This document shows, piece by piece, positions 17,239-43,819 of a stretch of 64,000 nucleotides of DNA (positions are counted from its first letter, which is position 1; the number at the start of each line of letters is the position of its first letter). The stretch covers positions 62,001-126,000 of the forward strand of contig NZ_CACZDK010000003.1 in the NCBI RefSeq assembly GCF_902779965.1. The letters are read 5' to 3'. Both the position numbers and the translations under genes were made by a program. A model generated the notes under the pieces. That model saw only the letters and a list, made by a program, of their open reading frames with translations. It was not told the origin of the DNA and ran no database searches. Source of the stretch: Fibrobacter succinogenes. GTDB lineage: Bacteria; Fibrobacterota; Fibrobacteria; Fibrobacterales; Fibrobacteraceae.

Positions 17239-17271
17239 CAGAAACAAACAAATATGGCAATCGGTATTTTT

Positions 17272-19707
17272 ATGAAGAAAATTATCTGTTTCATGTATAT
17301 TTTAGCGATTACAACCTGTTTTGCTGAAATAACATTGACTACAGAAATGGATCAAAAGAATTGCAATTTTGCAGTTCAAGTAAAAGAAGACAGCAACACC
17401 CTGTTTTCCGAAACAATGCATATTTCTGGACAATTTGGAAGATCTGCTTGTTTTGATTCGTGGATTGAAGCCTGCTTAATAAATCAAAAAGATGCAGCTT
17501 TTATTAATGGAATGAAAGAAAATCGTTCTAAGAGTTTTACAAATTCAAAGGGACAAATATGTTTCTTCGACAACTTAAGCCTTTCTACAGGAAATATGGG
17601 TTGTTTTACCTCAAGGCCAGATCATGTCTACGGTGTCAACGCAAAAGTCAGCTGCGTAGACACAACATCGACTCCATTGTACTGCGCTAAAAACGAAAAA
17701 CTCGCCAAACAGGTATTATTGGTAAAACAGGAACTTGAATGCAAAGAAAAAGATGGAGTATTCCAAGGGGATGTTTATGCCTTCGAACAAGAAGACGGAT
17801 CAACAGAATACTGCATTTCTGCATCATGTGACATTTGCGGTTCAGAATGGTTTGAAGAATATGTAAATCAAAGAAAACAATCCGAATGCTGTGAAAAATT
17901 AGGCAAAGAACCGAATCAAGGCAATGGAATGTGCGAAAGTCCTTTGCCACCAAGCTCAAGTGAAATCGGAGTTTCTTATTCTCAAATAAAAAATTTTCCA
18001 GGTTGCTCAAATATAACAGCAGGCGAAGGGGATAAATTCTGCAAAGTACAGCAATCATCTTCTAGTTCTGAAAAATCTTCTTCGTCACAAGGATCCAGTT
18101 CGTCATCTGACCAAAGTTCATCAAGCGAGAACTCATCTAGCTCAAGTGAAAGCAGTTCCAGCAGCATGGATAAATCGAGCTCCTCGTCTGCTGAATCTTC
18201 GAGTTCAAAAGAATCCTCATCTTCTGCAGAGTCTTCGAGTTCTGAAGAGTCTTCGTCTTCTGCAGAATCTTCAAGTTCAGAGGAATCTTCGTCTTCAGTC
18301 GAATCTTCAAGTTCTGAAGAATCTTCGTCTTCTGCAGAGTCTTCAAGTTCGGATGAATCTTCGTCTTCTGCAGAATCATCTAGTTCCGAAAATTCATCAT
18401 CTTCTGCTAAATCCTCTAGTTCTGAAAGCTCATCAAGCGAAACAGGATTGTGCAAAACACTCCCTGTAGACAAAATTCCATACAATGCTAAATCAGCTTG
18501 CTTCAAAAATAACGGACACTGCTATAAGTGTAAAGCAGGCATCAACGAAAGCGATTGTCAGAACAGTTGGTCATGGCAAAATCCAAACACCCCTGTCAAC
18601 ACATACCACTGGTTTAACGAAGTCAATTGTGCCACTGGAGAAAAAACAGACCAGGGAATCGGTGTATGTCCAGCACAGCCTCTAGACGCAATTCCAAGCG
18701 ATTTGTCAAACGCATGCTTCGCCATGGACGGGAAATGCTATAAATGCAAAGACCCGTCTCCATACGGCGGATGCGCACAGTCTTGGATTTGGACACAAAA
18801 GCTTTACTACGCGGAACCATACTATCTTGAAGAAGTAGATTGCTATGATCCGTTTGAAATACACAGCAAGCAATGTCCAGACGGAAACGCTTTAATGAAA
18901 AGAGCCTCGGATTATGAATATGCGGAAAACGCAAGTGATGATAGATACAACATTGATTTCACAAACAACATAAAATACTATAACATTTTAGGACGAAAAA
19001 CATCAAGGGCTAACTCTGTCAAACAGGTCCTTTATAGAAAAAGTACTGATAATTTTTATAAAAAATCGGCGGACCAGCTGCAGCAGACTATCGAGAATAT
19101 TTTTGAAAAAATAAATCAAGGATATAATAAAAGGGGGCTTTTTAAACGAAATGATTGTGGGCTCCTTGGTGGTGATTATGGAATAATTGAACCGGATGGC
19201 TCAAGAACAGGAGGAATTACATGCCCTGATGCTGAGCCTCGATTTAGTAAGCCTAAAGTGTTAAAATCAAAGTTTTTAGAAGAAACATGCATTATAAAAG
19301 ATTGTGAGTACAAGAAGGTTTGGGTGAAAGTCGGAACAACGTTACAGATGACACTTATTAGTATAAAGGACACAGTCGTGGAAATAGGTTTTGTTTTTCC
19401 TGATGGCTATGTAACGACAAAGGAAGACCATGAAGCGGTAAAAAAACATGAAAAAGGACATGTTAAAGATTTTGAATGTATTGCAAAAAAATTCCCTAAA
19501 GAAAAAAAATATATTGAGGTCGAAGTGGAGGCTTGCAATGAGGATAGCGTATTAAATGCAGCAATCAAGGAAAAGGTAAAGCCGTATCTAGAGGAAATGC
19601 AAAGTAATTTCGATAAACGGGCTGATGAGGCAACAAGGCGATATCACAAAACATATAGTTCTTTTGATTATCCCAAAGGTAAATATGAATGTCCAAGTGA
19701 TTTATAA
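17272..19707 (+). CDS. Large secreted multidomain protein with serine-rich linker and C-terminal HEXXH motif
   Basis: An 811-residue exported protein (signal peptide MKKIICFMYILAITTCFA). Order: a cysteine-containing N-terminal region to about residue 230; a serine-rich linker of SSSSAES/SSSEES repeats (about 255-385); two cysteine-rich modules of the same type (SACFKNNGHCYKCKAG and NACFAMDGKCYKCKDP); then a C-terminal domain with HEAVKKHEKGHVKDFE, an HEXXH zinc-protease-like motif at about residue 720. The last domain resembles DUF922-type metallopeptidase-like proteins, but that is tentative. The start at 17272 is chosen for the signal peptide. AT-rich relative to the region before it; its 3' end overlaps the next gene by 23 bases. 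Confidence 0.75.
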   Translation: MKKIICFMYILAITTCFAEITLTTEMDQKNCNFAVQVKEDSNTLFSETMHISGQFGRSACFDSWIEACLINQKDAAFINGMKENRSKSFTNSKGQICFFDNLSLSTGNMGCFTSRPDHVYGVNAKVSCVDTTSTPLYCAKNEKLAKQVLLVKQELECKEKDGVFQGDVYAFEQEDGSTEYCISASCDICGSEWFEEYVNQRKQSECCEKLGKEPNQGNGMCESPLPPSSSEIGVSYSQIKNFPGCSNITAGEGDKFCKVQQSSSSSEKSSSSQGSSSSSDQSSSSENSSSSSESSSSSMDKSSSSSAESSSSKESSSSAESSSSEESSSSAESSSSEESSSSVESSSSEESSSSAESSSSDESSSSAESSSSENSSSSAKSSSSESSSSETGLCKTLPVDKIPYNAKSACFKNNGHCYKCKAGINESDCQNSWSWQNPNTPVNTYHWFNEVNCATGEKTDQGIGVCPAQPLDAIPSDLSNACFAMDGKCYKCKDPSPYGGCAQSWIWTQKLYYAEPYYLEEVDCYDPFEIHSKQCPDGNALMKRASDYEYAENASDDRYNIDFTNNIKYYNILGRKTSRANSVKQVLYRKSTDNFYKKSADQLQQTIENIFEKINQGYNKRGLFKRNDCGLLGGDYGIIEPDGSRTGGITCPDAEPRFSKPKVLKSKFLEETCIIKDCEYKKVWVKVGTTLQMTLISIKDTVVEIGFVFPDGYVTTKEDHEAVKKHEKGHVKDFECIAKKFPKEKKYIEVEVEACNEDSVLNAAIKEKVKPYLEEMQSNFDKRADEATRRYHKTYSSFDYPKGKYECPSDL

Positions 19708-20263
19708 ATTTTGCATCTTTATTGCTAGTGCGTTCGCACTTTGCAATGCCGCCGATTATCCAGATGAAAAATCTGATGATGATCCTATCTTTGCCGATTT
19801 TTGCTTTTACAAGGATTCTATCTCATGGCTTGAGGTGGATAGTGTTTATGTATTAACCTATTATAAAATGGAAAATGAATTTACGATTTCAATCAATTTT
19901 AAGAGTACTACAGATTTTTCTTTTTTTGGAGTAAGTCTGCCGGATTATGATAGAAATAAAATTATCATAAATCCTGTTCGAGGCACACAAGGAAGTGGCG
20001 CAGGATCTTATCGAGGTCGAAAATATTCAGATAATAGGACCGTAATACCTTATGATCTAATTGACTTTTATATACTTTCAAAAGACTCTTTGTTCGTAAA
20101 ATCTCTTTTTGGTACAAAGAACCGATTAAAATGGGATTACCATCTTGAGATGGGTAAACAGAAACAAAAAATATCTGGAGACAACATCATTTATATTTCC
20201 GGTTTTTGCACTGAGAAGCAATTGAAAATAATCAGGAAGAGGAAAAAAAATAGCAGCAACTAA
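19685..20263 (+). CDS. Small exported protein, paralogue A
   Basis: The protein has 192 residues with a signal peptide (VIYKFCIFIASAFALCNAAD). Function is not recognised. It is about 70 percent identical by eye to the protein at 20911-21510, sharing CNAADYPDEKSDDDPIF and the C-terminal KQKISGDNIIYISGFCTE. The ATG at 19685 lies inside the end of the HEXXH protein gene, so the two are translationally linked. After its stop, the same frame continues for 35 more codons (20264-20371), probably a gene remnant. Confidence 0.7.
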   Translation: MNVQVIYKFCIFIASAFALCNAADYPDEKSDDDPIFADFCFYKDSISWLEVDSVYVLTYYKMENEFTISINFKSTTDFSFFGVSLPDYDRNKIIINPVRGTQGSGAGSYRGRKYSDNRTVIPYDLIDFYILSKDSLFVKSLFGTKNRLKWDYHLEMGKQKQKISGDNIIYISGFCTEKQLKIIRKRKKNSSN

Positions 20264-20371
20264 GTTCCCGCCTGCGATATTTTTAAACAAGAGTATGATT
20301 TAAACTGCTCTATTGAATTTAAGGGACTGTATATAGGTGAATGTGATTTCACAGAATTGATCGATAAATAA
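20264..20371 (+). pseudogene. Orphan 3' coding remnant after the paralogue A stop
   Basis: In frame with the stop of paralogue A, the sequence reads PACDIFKQEYDLNCSIEFKG and then LYIGECDFTELIDK before a stop at 20369. It has a weak likeness to the C-terminus of the next protein (YEFKARIVGECSE). No start codon or ribosome site precedes it. It is probably the tail of a decayed duplicate; alternatively, paralogue A was once longer. Confidence 0.4.
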
Positions 20372-20396
20372 AAAGAGGAATTTCAAGGAAAGCAAG

Positions 20397-20906
20397 GTGA
20401 AAATATTTACACTCATTGTGATTTTATCTATGTCACAAATACTGACTCCGCTTTTATACGCGCAAAACCATACTTTTGATTTTTGCGTAAAAAATATTGA
20501 TTCTGATAATGAATCTCGCTATACTTTGATGTCATTAAAGCATCAATCAATTCTGCCAGATTCTACTTGGCAAATTCCGAATACCGTAAAATGCGCTTGC
20601 AATGCCTGGTCAACAAATGTTCGTATAGCAACTCCAGGCTTAACTTCTGGAGGAATCAATTTTGCAACTTGCACTGTAATGGGGAATCCATCAAGTATTT
20701 CAACAACGAAAACATTACCAAATATTGAAATGCCAACCACAATTCTTTATTTTCCTGCCGGGACTTTTTCTGCAAGTATAAGAGATTACTTTCAAAAGGA
20801 GGTTAAAGGTTTCTGGAAAGCCTCTTTGTATTGTGGAGGAGGAAATGAAAAAATAGAATTCATCTACGAATTTAAGGCTCGTATTGTTGGAGAATGTAGT
20901 GAGTAA
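20397..20906 (+). CDS. Small exported protein, unknown function
   Basis: The protein has 169 residues. A GTG start at 20397 has AAGGAAAGCAAG just upstream. The signal peptide (MKIFTLIVILSMSQILTPLL, then YAQ) is followed by a cysteine-containing mature part (VKCACNAWSTN, NFATCTV, LYCGGGNEK, VGECSE) that suggests disulphides in the periplasm or outside. No family recognised. It lies between the two paralogues and only four bases before the second, so it is probably in the same transcript as the HEXXH protein. Confidence 0.6.
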   Translation: MKIFTLIVILSMSQILTPLLYAQNHTFDFCVKNIDSDNESRYTLMSLKHQSILPDSTWQIPNTVKCACNAWSTNVRIATPGLTSGGINFATCTVMGNPSSISTTKTLPNIEMPTTILYFPAGTFSASIRDYFQKEVKGFWKASLYCGGGNEKIEFIYEFKARIVGECSE

Positions 20907-20910
20907 ATAA

Positions 20911-21510
20911 ATGATTCATAAAGTGATTTATAAAATTTGCATCATTATCGCATGTGCGTTCGCATTTTGCAATGCCGCCGATTATCCAGATGAAAAATCG
21001 GATGATGACCCAATCTTTTCCTATTTCTGCTTTTATAAGGATGTTGTTTCCTGGATAAAGAATGATAGCGTCTATGCTTTATCCTATTATGAAATGCAAA
21101 ATGAATTTACGATTAGTGTCGATTATAAGAGTACGACAAGTTCATCCATATTCGGAGTAAATCTTCCGGATCTTGATCAAAAAAAAATACAGACCGATCT
21201 TGTGCGAGGAGTGCAAGGAGAAGGAGGTGGATTCTATCAAGGTCGAAAATATCCAAGAAATAGGGTCGTAAAGCCTTACGACTTAATCGATTTTTACATT
21301 CTCCAAAAAGATTCTTTGTATGTTAAAACTCTGTTTGGAACAACGAATCGACTGAAATGGGAATATCTCCTAGATATGGGAAAACAGAAACAAAAAATAT
21401 CTGGAGATAACATCATTTACATTTCCGGTTTCTGCACCGAAGAACAACTGAAAGCGATAAGAGAAAGAAAAAAGAAGTGTCCTGATAAAAATAATAACTG
21501 TAAAAAATGA
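20911..21510 (+). CDS. Small exported protein, paralogue A-prime
   Basis: This 199-residue exported protein is a paralogue of the one at 19685-20263, with the same signal region (ACAFAFCNAADYPDEKSDDD) and conserved core (KKPYDLIDFYIL-like, LFGTTNRLKWEYLLDMGKQK). It ends in a lysine-rich tail. Function is unknown. Tandem divergent copies behind a large secreted protein are reminiscent of immunity-gene expansions, but no toxin domain is established here, so this remains a hypothesis. Confidence 0.65.
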   Translation: MIHKVIYKICIIIACAFAFCNAADYPDEKSDDDPIFSYFCFYKDVVSWIKNDSVYALSYYEMQNEFTISVDYKSTTSSSIFGVNLPDLDQKKIQTDLVRGVQGEGGGFYQGRKYPRNRVVKPYDLIDFYILQKDSLYVKTLFGTTNRLKWEYLLDMGKQKQKISGDNIIYISGFCTEEQLKAIRERKKKCPDKNNNCKK

Positions 21511-37182: not shown

Positions 37183-38337
37183 TTACTTCAAGAAGCTTTC
37201 TGTCATGAGGCGGGCTTCCTTGTCGGCTTCGAGAACTTGTTCGAGCGAGAGATGGCCTGTGACATTCGGAGCCTTGTCCATCACCATTTCCACATACTTC
37301 GGGATGTCCGTGAACTTGAGGTTCCCTTTGAGGAAGCGGTCCACGAGGACTTCGTTTGCAGCGTTCATCATCGCAGGGACGATACCGCCACGGCGGCCTG
37401 CGTCAAACGCAAGAGCGAGGCAACGGAACTTGTTGAAGTCCGGTTCGAAGAACGTGAGCTTTGCAAGAGTCGGCAAGTCGAGGCGCTTCGTTTCGAGCTT
37501 GAGACGATCCGGCCACGTGAGTGCCACCTGGATAGGAATGCGCATGTCGGGAGCGCCGAGCTGTGCCATCAAGGAACCATCGCGGAACTGCACCAGCGAG
37601 TGCACCATGGACTGCGGGTGAACCACGACCTTGATCTGGTCATACGGAATGTGGAACAAGAAGTGTGCTTCGAGCACTTCGAGCCCCTTGTTCATCATGG
37701 ACGCAGAGTCAATCGTAATCTTCTTGCCCATGCTCCACACCGGATGATTGAGGGCGTCAGCGACTGTGATGTTTTCGAACTTTTCGATAGGCCATTCGCG
37801 GAACGGGCCACCCGAAGCCGTGATTTCGAGGAATTCCACTTCAGATTCGCGCTTGCCGCCTTCAAGGCACTGGAAAATGGCGCTGTGTTCAGAGTCAATG
37901 GGCGTGATGAAGGACTTCGGATTTTCGGCAAGTTTGTCCCAAATAACCGGGCCTGCCATCACCATCGTTTCTTTGTTAGCGAGAGCCACGTGCTTGCCGT
38001 GTTCAATAGCGGTAATGGTCGGAAGGCAGCCCACAGCGCCCATCAGAGCGTTGATGATAATGTCGGCCTTGGGGTCGGCAGCAAGTTCGCAAAGACCATC
38101 CATGCCAGCGAGCACTTTTTTGCCGAGCAAGCCTTCGAGTTCCTTCGCGGCAGCTTCGTTGAACATGCAAACGCGTTCGACATTGTACTTGCGAACGATT
38201 TCAGCAACCTTTTCGACACTGCTATTGGCAGCCACAGCGTAAAGGTTAAAGATGTCGGAATGTTGGTGAATCACATCAACACTGGAGGTGCCGATAGAAC
38301 CGGTGGCACCGAGAAGAACGACGTTTTTCATTTTCAA
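37183..38337 (-). CDS. dxr: 1-deoxy-D-xylulose 5-phosphate reductoisomerase
   Basis: The second enzyme of the MEP isoprenoid pathway, 384 residues, normal length. NADPH-binding LLGATGSIGTSS at residues 8-19; ALANKETMVMAGPVIW; substrate and metal site ITPIDSEHSAIFQCLEG (D and E ligands), then TASGGPFREWP and WSMGKKITIDSASMMNKGLE. It normally follows cdsA in a frr-uppS-cdsA-dxr block; here the other three genes are found at 47-49 kb with the same orientation but an oppositely oriented 8.7-kb segment lies between. Confidence 0.97.
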   Translation of the reverse strand: MKMKNVVLLGATGSIGTSSVDVIHQHSDIFNLYAVAANSSVEKVAEIVRKYNVERVCMFNEAAAKELEGLLGKKVLAGMDGLCELAADPKADIIINALMGAVGCLPTITAIEHGKHVALANKETMVMAGPVIWDKLAENPKSFITPIDSEHSAIFQCLEGGKRESEVEFLEITASGGPFREWPIEKFENITVADALNHPVWSMGKKITIDSASMMNKGLEVLEAHFLFHIPYDQIKVVVHPQSMVHSLVQFRDGSLMAQLGAPDMRIPIQVALTWPDRLKLETKRLDLPTLAKLTFFEPDFNKFRCLALAFDAGRRGGIVPAMMNAANEVLVDRFLKGNLKFTDIPKYVEMVMDKAPNVTGHLSLEQVLEADKEARLMTESFLK

Positions 38338-38527
38338 AATCTCAATAATTACAGGTTTTATTTGCGATTAAAAGATAGCTCTTTTAGAATCCCGAGCAAC
38401 CATCTGAAGTCCAAAAATCCCCAAATCGCCCCCAAAAGCGTCATTTTATTACAAATTTGATACAGCTGTCAAAATTTTATCGAATTTATCATTTTTTTAT
38501 TATTTTGCACTAAAAAAGGAACAAATT

Positions 38528-41140
38528 ATGGCAAATGAACAATTGCAAATCAAACCAGACACACCTTTCGTATTTGAAATCAATGATACTACAAGTGAAG
38601 TTGTAGAAAATTTTGAAAAAAAAGACACTTCAATTTTCCAAAATATCTATAACGGCATCTTCCCCGCTATAAAAAATACTTTAGAAACCTACGAGTTAAA
38701 TAAAGACAAAAACAAAGAAAATCCAAATAATATATTTGCAATTATCGGGGATAGAGGGGCTGGAAAAACATCCTGCATGAAATCAATAGCATTAATGCTA
38801 TCCGAAAATAACAAAGTAGAACATTCCGTTTTTGCAAATTTCGATGACAACTCTTTTCAAAAAAAATCCTTCGAAGTAATCGAATCAACAGATCCATCAT
38901 TCTTCAACAAAAACAAAAATATTTTAGATATCGTTTTAGGCAGACTATTTTCTCGATTCGAAGAAGAAGTACAACGAAATCAATCAAACAACATTAACAA
39001 AAAAAACACAGTTCTTCAAAATTTTGAAAATGTCAAACATTCTTTAGCTAGTATGGAGAAAAACGTTTGCGAAGACGATTGCGTCAATCAACTTATTGAT
39101 TTAAGCGCCTCCGTAGATTTAAAAAAATACATCGGAGAATTAATTGATAGTTTTTTAGACTATATCGGAAAAGATTATCTTGTAATTCCCGTAGATGACA
39201 TTGATTTGCACACGCTTTACGCATTCGACATGGCTGAGCAAATCAGAAAATACCTTGCACAACCAAGAACAATTGTGCTAATGGCTCTAAAAATCGAGCA
39301 ACTAGAATATGCAATTGTCAGACATTACCTAGATCATTACAAAATGATGCTTGATCAAAAAATTATTCATAACAGTAATGTCACAGATATGGCTGTTAAA
39401 TACCTAATCAAGCTCATTCCACAAAGTCATCGATTTCCTTTAATTTCCATTCAAGACCTTTTAAATGAAAAAATAGAAATTAAGAATAATAAAAATATAG
39501 TCACACAAAAAAAACATACTTTAAAAGAAATTATTATTGATTTAATTTTTGAAAAAACACATTTATCTTTTTCAACATCATCAAAAGATCCAAATCTTAT
39601 TATACCCAACAATCTTCGAGAATGTCGATACCTATTAGAATTTTTAATTCAAATGGGAAAATACTCCACTACAAGATCAGGAAAATACAATCAACAAAAA
39701 TTCATAACTCACCTCATTAACTATTGCGAAAAATCATTAACTTCAGATGACATATCTTTTTTAAAAAATCTTACTACAAATATTTCCGCCAGAAATTTAA
39801 ACAAATACATCATCAACTATCTATCCTCAAAATTAGAACAATTTACAGACCCTTCTGAACCCCTTTATAGAAGACGCGTTTTATTAGGATCTCGCATAAA
39901 CAGAATCATCAGTTTAAGAAACTCGCCCTACAATGTATCATGTGGAGACCTAGTGGCATTTCTCCAATATTTCGAATCAAGAATTTTTCAAGAAAGTGAT
40001 ACACTATTTACGTTTGCCATAAAAACATTATATTCAATTTTATTAGACCGCACTTATAACGAAAAAGAGAACAACAAGAAATCTATCGATGATAAAATAA
40101 ATTACGATAGCATTGTCGGAGGAACTTTCATAAGTGAAAGTGATTCAGGAATTAACAGCCATTTTTCTTCAAATATCATTTATAAATGCAATCGTCAAAT
40201 TCGTAGAATAATTTCAATTAATAGTTTAAAAGACAATCTAAAAGACGCCTTAGATTCAAAAGGCAACATAAAAGATTTAGAAAAATTCAACACCATCGAG
40301 TTTTTTGCACTAACAATTTCAAGAGCTTACACATTTAACAATGACGAGTCTTTCAGAACAAAAATCGACCCAGTATATACAGCAGAATTTCCTAATGACA
40401 ACCCATACGTATGGTTCGACATTTTTTCACTTTTCACCAACATAACTCATATTGAACAAAGTTACAATCGAATTGATCCAAATCTTTACAAAATAGCACA
40501 AAAAAATCCTAAATCACTTTTTTCACTAATGCGAAAAACATGTCTTGATTTAAAACAAAAAAATGCCGATAAAAATATTGACGGGAATCAAGCATTTTCA
40601 TCATGCAGCTGTATCCGAAATTTTGATGATTTAGAGAAAATTAGATATAACCTAATCAACAGCACACAAACCGAAGACAATGGTATCGACACAATAGAAA
40701 ACATTTTAGTTACAATTTGCCCCAATATAAAACTTGAAAATAATGAAAATGATTTATATCACGAAATAAACTTCAACTTCATAGAAGTTTTATACAATTT
40801 TTTGAGCAGTCAAAAAACCAAATCAACATTTAACAATATCTATGAGAATATATCAAACCAAACATTAAATCATTTCAACAAACTCAACCAATTTACTCAA
40901 GGAATAGCTTTATTGACTGTTTTAAACAAAAAATCAGATCCTCAAAAAATAAAAGAAAACGTCCTTACAAGTATCAAAATATACATAGCCAATCTCAACT
41001 ATAGCAACACTATAATCGAAGATTACATTCATGAGAATCTTGAAGATATTGATGTAAAAACACTCGAAGGCGCATACAAATTCGCACGCACCTACAACAC
41101 GTTCATCGATTGGCTCAAGACTCTCCCCGTTATCGCTTAA
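38528..41140 (+). CDS. rdrA: RADAR antiphage system ATPase RdrA
   Basis: An 870-residue P-loop NTPase. Walker A is IIGDRGAGKTS (about residues 72-82) and the Walker B strand DYLVIPVDDIDLH (216-228). The rest is long helical sequence without other recognised domains. Size (family about 900) and the tightly coupled second gene encoding an adenosine-deaminase-fold protein identify it as RdrA, which assembles with RdrB and activates its deaminase upon phage infection. An AAGGA ribosome site precedes the ATG. The gene is strikingly AT-rich with heavy AAA/AAT use, unlike dxr on one side and the lipoproteins on the other, so it was probably acquired horizontally. Other ATPase defence families are possible from this gene alone; RdrB decides. 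Confidence 0.83.
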   Translation: MANEQLQIKPDTPFVFEINDTTSEVVENFEKKDTSIFQNIYNGIFPAIKNTLETYELNKDKNKENPNNIFAIIGDRGAGKTSCMKSIALMLSENNKVEHSVFANFDDNSFQKKSFEVIESTDPSFFNKNKNILDIVLGRLFSRFEEEVQRNQSNNINKKNTVLQNFENVKHSLASMEKNVCEDDCVNQLIDLSASVDLKKYIGELIDSFLDYIGKDYLVIPVDDIDLHTLYAFDMAEQIRKYLAQPRTIVLMALKIEQLEYAIVRHYLDHYKMMLDQKIIHNSNVTDMAVKYLIKLIPQSHRFPLISIQDLLNEKIEIKNNKNIVTQKKHTLKEIIIDLIFEKTHLSFSTSSKDPNLIIPNNLRECRYLLEFLIQMGKYSTTRSGKYNQQKFITHLINYCEKSLTSDDISFLKNLTTNISARNLNKYIINYLSSKLEQFTDPSEPLYRRRVLLGSRINRIISLRNSPYNVSCGDLVAFLQYFESRIFQESDTLFTFAIKTLYSILLDRTYNEKENNKKSIDDKINYDSIVGGTFISESDSGINSHFSSNIIYKCNRQIRRIISINSLKDNLKDALDSKGNIKDLEKFNTIEFFALTISRAYTFNNDESFRTKIDPVYTAEFPNDNPYVWFDIFSLFTNITHIEQSYNRIDPNLYKIAQKNPKSLFSLMRKTCLDLKQKNADKNIDGNQAFSSCSCIRNFDDLEKIRYNLINSTQTEDNGIDTIENILVTICPNIKLENNENDLYHEINFNFIEVLYNFLSSQKTKSTFNNIYENISNQTLNHFNKLNQFTQGIALLTVLNKKSDPQKIKENVLTSIKIYIANLNYSNTIIEDYIHENLEDIDVKTLEGAYKFARTYNTFIDWLKTLPVIA

Positions 41141-43689
41141 TGACAAATCTCAGCTCCATACTTCAAACATATTTCATTGACATTAGCGTCAATGAAATAT
41201 GTAATTCAATAGGCAAAGTAAAGCCAGATTCTTACGACAAAGGTATTCCCGAGCCTTTGTTTAAAAAATATTTTTTAAACCATAATTCTAATTACGGAAC
41301 CGATGTCGTTTCAAGCATCCATGAATATGCAAATAATTATTGGATGAAGCAAAAAAACTCATCTAACGACTTCAACGGCGTATTCAACATTCTCAGAAAC
41401 GCAACTAAAGATTTATTGCATTGGGACGAATATGGAGAAAATCTTGCTTGCAAATACGAAGAATACTTAAAGTGGAACGACATATCTTCCTTTGTTGGCG
41501 AAGACATCTTCACAACATCTTTTTTAGCAAACAAAAGCATTGAAGATAATTATTCAATTGAATCTTTTGCTTGGAAGCCGCATCTTATTTCCGATTCCAA
41601 AGAAGTCAACGAAATCATTCACAGAGATCTATTCGAGCAACATTTTCACATGTATGGTTCTTCCCTCTGTTTTGCCATAAATTGGATTGCGGCAATGAAT
41701 GATAGCCATCAAGTCAACAAAAAGAAAAAAGAACTAAATGCTTTCAGCGAGAACCTTACAGAAAACATCATCAAAGCTGCAGCCATAAGGCTATTCCTCT
41801 TCGACCATCTATTTGATGTTAAGCTAAATACAACAGAAGCTGATTTGATTAAAATAATTCAAGCGCAAAACATTCAGGAAATCAACGCATTATTTCTTAA
41901 ATTTGCTAACACAATTAATGTTGCAAGAGATCTAGACAACATTCTAAAATACGATGGATTCACTTTTGATTATACATTAACGAGACCTATTACCGACAAC
42001 GACACGCAACGGTATTATAATGTTCCTTTAATCGGTGAGCGCAAGCTATTATACAGAGCCTTCCAAAAAATTTATTCATGCGATAAAACTTTCGAGCCAT
42101 ATAAAACATATTTCTATATCTATCTCGTTGCCAAAAACAAAGCTCGTCAATTTTTTGTTCAAGACAACAAGACTAAAGGTTTTTCAAGATTTCAGGATTA
42201 CGACAAAAGAAAAGCCCATTTTATAAAAGATGGTTCAAAATATTGGAATATTTTCTGTTTTATTTCAGCACAAACAACGGCATGCAATCAAGCCATGAAA
42301 GGGCTCGAAATGAGAATTGTGCCCAAGTTAGAATCACAACAACAAGCTCAAGAAATAAAAGAAATAAACACCAGTATCAACAATCATGCATTTGCGCTAG
42401 ATCAAGATAATTTAATTTCGCAAAACAAACAAAAATTGGGTTACATTCTTCACTTTATAAAAGAAAAAGACAAGGATTTCAAAAAAATCGGAGTATATTG
42501 CAAAAACGAAAGTCTCCGGGATAAATTGGACAAACAAGCGAGCGCCATAGCAAGGCTCATCGCCACAAACAGCATGTACATTCAAGGCGGAGTCATTCCG
42601 CAACGCAAAATCAACCAAAAAGATTCCATCTACCCCATCATTGGTATTGACGCTGCAAATTCCGAATTTGGCTGTCGTCCAGAAGTTTTCGCAACCGTAT
42701 TCAGACGATTAAAATATGTCCATCACAGCAATCGTACAGATTATCTTTACAGTCGCAAAAACTATCAACTGGGCAGAACATTTCATGTCGCCGAAGATTA
42801 TTACGACATAGTTGATGGACTCCGAGCTATTGATGAATGTATTTTCTATTTAAACTTTGGCGAAGGAGACCGCCTCGGTCATTGCGTAGCACTCGGCATT
42901 GAACCTCAACGATATTACAAAACTAGAAACTACACCATCATTCTACCGAAGCAAATTCTTTTGGACAACGCCGTTTGGCTTTTGTTCAAAATGGATGAAT
43001 ACTCGATTCCTGATTCCAATGGATTAAAAAAACGTTTAAGAGACGTTTTTCATTTTTACTTTCCACAAATATACAAAGGGTATAGCGGTACAATCGAAGA
43101 CTACTACTCGGCATGGAAACTTCGCGGAGACGATCCAAGATCATCCACGCCAAAAGATTCGTACATTAAACCATATCTTTTGAACAAGATTGATTCAGAA
43201 TTAGACTTATTCCGAGAAAATGAAGATATTAGCAATTTGTATAGAGCATACCATAGTTGCGACCAAAGAATTAATGGAGAGGAACTCGTTGAATTTCAGC
43301 TAAAAGATAGCGATGTCTGGGTGATTCGAGACCTACAGCAATTCATGCGCAAAGAAATCAGCCGGAAAAAAATTTCTATCGAGACAAACCCCACATCGAA
43401 CATCATTATTACCGATGTAGAACGCTACAGCAAGCACCCTATTTTGCAATTCTATAATTATGGTTTATCCGATGATGCAAATCCAGAACAGATAAATGTT
43501 TCGATAAATACAGACGACCAAGGTGTTTTCGCAACATCGCTCGAAAAAGAGTTCACGCTCATGGCCTGTGCGCTAGAAAAAAAACGAAACGACATCGATG
43601 GGAAGCCGACATATTCTCCGAAAGACATTTACAAATGGCTTGACGACATTCGACAATCCGCAGGCCGAAGCACATTTTTCAAGGAATAA
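41140..43689 (+). CDS. rdrB: RADAR antiphage system adenosine deaminase RdrB
   Basis: An 849-residue protein with the metal-site motifs of the adenosine deaminase family in correct order: DLFEQHFHMYGSS (H168, H170), GRTFHVAED (H549, E552), GDRLGHCVALG (H581), IETNPTSN (748-753 region) and VSINTDDQGVF (D792, D793). Between the first and second motif lies a long insertion typical of RdrB. RdrB deaminates adenosine in RNA or nucleotides during phage attack as part of the RdrA-RdrB giant complex. It starts at the ATG in TAATG overlapping the rdrA stop by one base. Its composition is less extreme than rdrA but still AT-rich. No accessory rdrC/rdrD gene follows. Confidence 0.87.
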   Translation: MTNLSSILQTYFIDISVNEICNSIGKVKPDSYDKGIPEPLFKKYFLNHNSNYGTDVVSSIHEYANNYWMKQKNSSNDFNGVFNILRNATKDLLHWDEYGENLACKYEEYLKWNDISSFVGEDIFTTSFLANKSIEDNYSIESFAWKPHLISDSKEVNEIIHRDLFEQHFHMYGSSLCFAINWIAAMNDSHQVNKKKKELNAFSENLTENIIKAAAIRLFLFDHLFDVKLNTTEADLIKIIQAQNIQEINALFLKFANTINVARDLDNILKYDGFTFDYTLTRPITDNDTQRYYNVPLIGERKLLYRAFQKIYSCDKTFEPYKTYFYIYLVAKNKARQFFVQDNKTKGFSRFQDYDKRKAHFIKDGSKYWNIFCFISAQTTACNQAMKGLEMRIVPKLESQQQAQEIKEINTSINNHAFALDQDNLISQNKQKLGYILHFIKEKDKDFKKIGVYCKNESLRDKLDKQASAIARLIATNSMYIQGGVIPQRKINQKDSIYPIIGIDAANSEFGCRPEVFATVFRRLKYVHHSNRTDYLYSRKNYQLGRTFHVAEDYYDIVDGLRAIDECIFYLNFGEGDRLGHCVALGIEPQRYYKTRNYTIILPKQILLDNAVWLLFKMDEYSIPDSNGLKKRLRDVFHFYFPQIYKGYSGTIEDYYSAWKLRGDDPRSSTPKDSYIKPYLLNKIDSELDLFRENEDISNLYRAYHSCDQRINGEELVEFQLKDSDVWVIRDLQQFMRKEISRKKISIETNPTSNIIITDVERYSKHPILQFYNYGLSDDANPEQINVSINTDDQGVFATSLEKEFTLMACALEKKRNDIDGKPTYSPKDIYKWLDDIRQSAGRSTFFKE

Positions 43690-43819
43690 CAGCCTAAGCA
43701 TAGCATTTCCTACATTCCAGACGCATTTTGTCCACACGTTTGCGAAAATTTACAAACGGATTCGTCTTTTTTAGGTTATTTTGATTATGGGTTAGGTTTA
43801 TTGCTCGAAGGAGGTGCTT

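Follow-up and report, generated by a model that had tools for sequence, protein, structure and literature searches.

A probable, divergent standalone RADAR anti-phage system in Fibrobacter

The window analysed here, a 64,000-nucleotide stretch of a Fibrobacter genome, contains two adjacent genes on the plus strand: an rdrA-type gene (38528..41140, +) encoding an 870-aa AAA+ ATPase with a helical C-terminal lobe, a putative sensor and docking protein, followed by an rdrB-type gene (41140..43689, +) encoding an 849-aa adenosine deaminase. The rdrB start codon is the ATG at 41140, which overlaps the rdrA stop codon (TAATG) such that one base is common to both genes; a mechanical ORF call begins at TTG 41110. 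An initial annotation had described this locus as a two-gene RADAR system in a Fibrobacter host. The reading frames and their translation bear out both genes, their coordinates and their overlap, and the proposed host is supported. Chance is excluded by the length of the two ORFs, by homology along their whole extent and by the correct succession of their catalytic motifs. Scans for promoters and terminators returned counts close to shuffled expectation.

The pair sits between dxr, on the minus strand, and a gene for a serine-rich lipoprotein, a candidate FGE-sulfatase-like protein as judged by eye. A sister Fibrobacter stretch (L027) is homologous up to 38331 and again from 43726 onwards, which delimits an inserted segment (38332..43725, unstranded). 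In genome G134, whose Dxr protein is 100% identical, dxr and the lipoprotein gene are only 94 bp apart, and this genome has its own RADAR at another site. The same junction is found without RADAR in several further Fibrobacter genomes. Visual inspection of the two edges revealed no target-site duplication. On this comparison, it looks as if the whole cassette was gained here or lost in relatives. Because the lipoprotein gene occupies the same place in genomes lacking RADAR at this site, we did not count it as accessory, and the operon contains no accessory genes, in agreement with the initial annotation. RADAR subtypes comprise standalone (rdrAB), Csx27-associated and SLATT-associated systems (PMC7699616); judged by its gene content, the window system is of the standalone rdrAB subtype. 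Elsewhere in the window, an AT-rich patch (17254-21510) holds a gene for an 817-aa protein in which Ser and Glu form a long repeat, as well as two small genes that are paralogous to each other (19625-20263 and 20911-21510).

The G+C content is 30.2% in rdrA, 36.7% in rdrB and 45.7% in the remainder of the window. The diverged base composition that had been pointed out is therefore real, but it is not a special sign: of 68 related loci, 58 likewise have an RdrA-RdrB pair with a higher A+T content than the flanking DNA, and we rejected low G+C as a mark of anything beyond a family-wide trait. A separate origin of the two genes, based on the lower G+C of rdrA, was also rejected; the mean gap across 69 loci is 3.6 points, and that of the window, about 6.6 points, ranks eighth.

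RdrA carries the elements of an AAA+ ATPase. Translation places the Walker A motif GDRGAGKT at residues 74-81 (38747..38770, +), with K80 found in all 54 RdrAs having that region, and the Walker B motif YLVIPVDD at residues 217-224 (39176..39199, +), with D223 and D224 invariant in 55 RdrAs. R364 (39617..39619, +), likewise invariant in 55 RdrAs, is the likely sensor 2 residue and by position would correspond to E. coli R377. Both the P-loop and the Walker B previously claimed are thus in place, and in register with the solved E. coli and S. suis proteins.

In RdrB, the four metal-site motifs that had been listed (HxH, HxxE, LGH and NTDD) are all present and in order, within a protein that also has the regions beyond the deaminase core. 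H168-F-H170 (41641..41649, +) aligns with the HETHQHL region of E. coli RdrB and corresponds to its H152 and H154; H549-V-A-E552 (42784..42795, +) aligns with H498 and the catalytic E501, and L579-G-H581 (42874..42882, +) places H581 at H530, these five E. coli residues being named in PMC9994260. The last motif, N790-T-D792-D793 (43507..43518, +), supplies metal and catalytic residues. Across 77 RdrBs, H168, H170, H549, E552, H581, D792 and D793 are invariant.

The profile searches that had been proposed as a check place the second protein in RdrB (PADLOC RdrB, 1.9e-29; NCBIfam RdrB, 164 bits, 5.9e-48), with an additional match to Pfam A_deaminase, and the first in RdrA (PADLOC RdrA, 3e-17; NCBIfam RdrA, 88 bits). 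The best PDB chains by sequence are E. coli RdrB (8fnv/8fnw, 1e-19) and Streptococcus suis RdrA (8fnu, 3.8e-10). Profiles with the E. coli proteins inside give inflated scores for 8fnv and 8hr7; the clean versions, built from close relatives of the window proteins without E. coli or S. suis sequence, matched 8fnv at 1.2e-51 and 8fnu at 1.1e-31.

The window pair scores far below the NCBIfam equivalog cut-offs of 600 bits for RdrA and 800 bits for RdrB. Locus L139 served as a control: it matches 8fnw/8fnv and 8hr7/8fnt over the full length and is the E. coli RADAR, whose defence activity is published. It scored 135 and 116 bits on the RdrA and RdrB models, also under the cut-offs and, for RdrB, lower than the window protein, while its PADLOC scores were about equal to those of the window pair. 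The Aliivibrio system, annotated by NCBI as RADAR, reaches 781 and 970 bits. Since a proven RADAR fails these thresholds, the models are narrow, built around a single lineage, and falling short of their cut-offs does not place a system outside RADAR. Published RADARs are only 22-28% identical to each other (PMC9994260). Both this branch and the solved E. coli system fall far short of the thresholds of the curated models, and we infer that prevalence figures based on them may be too low.

We used AlphaFold2 to generate template-free monomer models, which were compared with known structures using Foldseek and VIA-align. The RdrB model has a pLDDT of 91.7 and a pTM of 0.92; the RdrA model has values of 81.8 and 0.80, with the last 100 C-terminal residues poorly predicted. 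The top Foldseek matches of RdrB are RADAR RdrB chains, from 4.4e-28 (8hr7) to 6.4e-25, and VIA-align against 8fnv gave a Z score of 31.9 at 3.4 Å over 704 residues, spanning model residues 7-849, whereas the Z scores of ordinary adenosine deaminases did not exceed 27, with matches of about 310 residues (308 at Z 27). All of the first 20 Foldseek matches of RdrA are RdrA chains; Z scores are 21-25 against RdrA structures (best 8hr8 and 8fnu, 23-25), and the next protein, the BREX component BrxC, reaches 13. The initial annotation had held that its reading would fail if the motifs did not cluster in a predicted active site; in the model, they lie in the predicted deaminase barrel of a protein that superposes on E. 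coli RdrB end to end.

A single-protein query of public genome contigs found no relatives, but an alignment-based query did, and a profile-guided scan of public genomes identified 355 RdrB relatives. The best 80 of these 355 are mostly from Bacteroidota and Bacillota, many of them from gut and rumen, and the order of the RdrA-RdrB pair is retained in most of these 80 loci, across several phyla. In a tree of 86 RdrBs, the window protein lies inside a clade of 76 sequences (SH-aLRT 100), with the E. coli, Aliivibrio and Rhizobium types falling outside. This clade spans Bacteroidota, Bacillota, Fusobacteriota and Fibrobacterota, and the catalytic residues are invariant throughout. The RADARs examined for sequence and fold now include those of Fibrobacter and of a large branch from gut and rumen. 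A phage collection searched for RdrB yielded none. Three viral-classed contigs from IMG/VR (L139, L140 and L141) carry the E. coli RADAR pair, L139 being near-identical to PDB 8fnw/8hr7, and E. coli RADAR may travel with prophage-like elements.

The gene pair, its order and overlap, its catalytic residues, predicted folds, family placement and chromosomal insertion were all computed here. We conclude that the window, from a rumen-type Fibrobacter, very probably encodes a divergent standalone (rdrAB) RADAR system against phages, an intact-looking and ordinary member of a known family. The earlier RADAR identification is thereby upheld by profiles, PDB relatives, folds, catalytic residues and pairing. 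In published systems, RdrA and RdrB build a giant complex in which each is required, RdrB deaminates ATP and dATP, yielding ITP and dITP, and the C-terminal lobe of RdrA is the proposed sensor (PMC9994260). The oligomeric state, substrate, trigger and defence function of the window pair would, by homology, be of the same kind. RADAR is characterised by an RdrA heptamer docked on an RdrB dodecamer. RdrA would assemble into an ATPase ring. Its C-terminal lobe, helical and variable, may sense some aspect of phage infection, and its ATPase-domain crown would dock onto RdrB, a putative multi-subunit zinc deaminase shell. Once engaged, RdrB would turn ATP/dATP into ITP/dITP, which could poison the nucleotide pool and arrest the infected cell.

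One residue sets the window protein apart. Position 551, between H549 and the catalytic E552, is alanine in the window RdrB and glycine in all 76 other aligned sequences. The corresponding glycine of the HAGE motif is conserved in adenosine deaminases. The alanine codon GCC (42790-42792, +) is one base from GGC (glycine), and this one-base change could be a sequencing error; if genuine, the substitution could reduce RdrB activity. The system is sometimes lost in the genus, as indicated by the copy in genome G102 (L021 10416-12994), in which rdrB is broken into two ORFs and rdrA is intact. Together with the uniqueness of Ala551 among 77 RdrBs, this leaves some room for the window pair being an impaired RADAR relative, in frame but weak or inactive through the change beside the catalytic glutamate. 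We regard such impairment as unlikely, as glycine to alanine is a conservative change, both frames are open (870 and 849 codons) and all other catalytic residues are retained.

Among 80 Fibrobacter genomes, 7 contain RdrB, 6 of them of the window's lineage. The seventh (G091, L024 3031-9044) belongs to the E. coli-type clade and represents a second, distant RADAR lineage in the genus; its RdrA, at 1141 aa, is unusually long. Besides the window's own, there are four full-length copies of the window's lineage in Fibrobacter, with 45-49% identity in RdrB and 33-41% in RdrA. In small trees, the window RdrB groups with Fibrobacter with 97-100% support. Within the genus, the window RdrA groups with that of G136 (100/99; a grouping with the L056/L058/L021 set is rejected, AU p 0.0007), whereas the window RdrB groups with L056/L058 (93/95; AU p 0.045 against grouping with G136/L057). 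This conflict between the two trees suggests that RdrA partners may have been exchanged. RdrA is also far more variable than RdrB (17% versus 31% mean column identity), chiefly in the C-terminal lobe.

Both the tree conflict and the variability could point to a RADAR-like pair with an altered trigger or substrate, for example dATP, a modified nucleotide or another phage signal received via the C-terminal lobe. We consider this quite unlikely, given that RADAR systems in general are described as having a variable RdrA (PMC9994260) and that the deaminase site is conserved. The initial annotation had likewise raised a different trigger or substrate, a suggestion that found no positive support here: the site is conserved bar Gly551 to Ala, standalone rdrAB systems have been described and low G+C is typical. 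That the unique Ala551 and an exchanged RdrA partner together confer a substrate preference or trigger unlike that of every RADAR studied seems very unlikely. Finally, a housekeeping purine-salvage deaminase beside an unrelated ATPase, to which the Pfam A_deaminase match might point, is extremely unlikely, as the RdrB match is full-length, an RdrA-type ATPase is the partner in most related loci, the gene is patchy in the genus rather than core, and the insertion site is empty in a sister genome.

In the Fibrobacter loci L019 11084-17316 (G136; order B-X-A) and L020 12767-17560 (G124; order A-B-X), RADAR is accompanied by a protein X of 323 or 345 aa with 5-6 TM segments and no match in Pfam or PADLOC; elsewhere in the 80 genomes, its only counterparts are one partial match (G064) and one weak match (G130). 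At L017 11724-15966 and L018 3446-7475, in two Fibrobacter genomes, a gene for a YobI-like/Tmn-like P-loop NTPase and one for an 870-876-aa protein adjoin RADAR, downstream of it in one genome and upstream in the other, and this pair is likely a second defence operon.

In the wider set, five Flavobacteriia loci (L065, L079, L080, L091 and L094) and one from Fusobacteriaceae (L060) have RdrA divided between neighbouring ORFs of about 310-333 and 472-696 aa, mostly right after a KLIPxxRRLxLP motif in the ATPase domain and with -1 to 3 bp between the ORFs. Several loci share the position of the split, which suggests that a two-gene RdrA is real. Within gut Bacteroidales, a monophyletic set, including one Melainabacteria-labelled contig, lies within the window's RdrB clade and is without RdrA by profile up to 8 kb on each side (L105 8001-10985 of Phocaeicola vulgatus ATCC 8482, L113, L114, L115, L118, L120, L121, L122, L123, L126, L135 and L136). 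A genome-wide search for RdrA in three of these genomes found none, and the positive controls worked. These RdrBs keep intact catalytic residues, and 11 of the loci encode a 101-148-aa protein family directly downstream; one of four members scanned is weakly HIRAN-like (1.7e-4, under the Pfam cut-off) and the others align with it. A radical-SAM/SPASM gene and an SNF2 helicase gene are often nearby. A search of a literature collection for HIRAN together with adenosine deaminase and defence found no paper there. An RdrA-less RdrB-HIRAN module is possible on this gene content, and the group may make a better experimental target.

Among named systems, Cad1, the CARF-adenosine deaminase of type III CRISPR, shares the deaminase domain fold with RdrB (Z 20.6-23.0), but it is CARF-controlled, lacks RdrA and matches over only about 320 residues; its ATP-to-ITP activity is published (PMC11645235). 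The Fibrobacter RADARs L017/L058, L018/L056, L019, L020/L057 and L021 belong to the window's clade but occupy other chromosomal sites. The RdrA of S. suis SS993, the best PDB sequence match of the window RdrA, is about 18% identical to it. The E. coli P0304799.3 RADAR (PDB 8fnt/8fnv/8fnw and 8hr7-8hrc) differs from the window system in that overall identity is about 20% and its RdrB falls in a separate clade (SH-aLRT 100). Its shell has an EEE triad at the 3-fold interface, which the window RdrB does not show at the corresponding position of the alignment; for the window RdrB, a dodecamer is thus only a prediction by homology. Like the window system, it has the rdrA-rdrB order, folds that correspond end to end, and the same zinc and catalytic residues.
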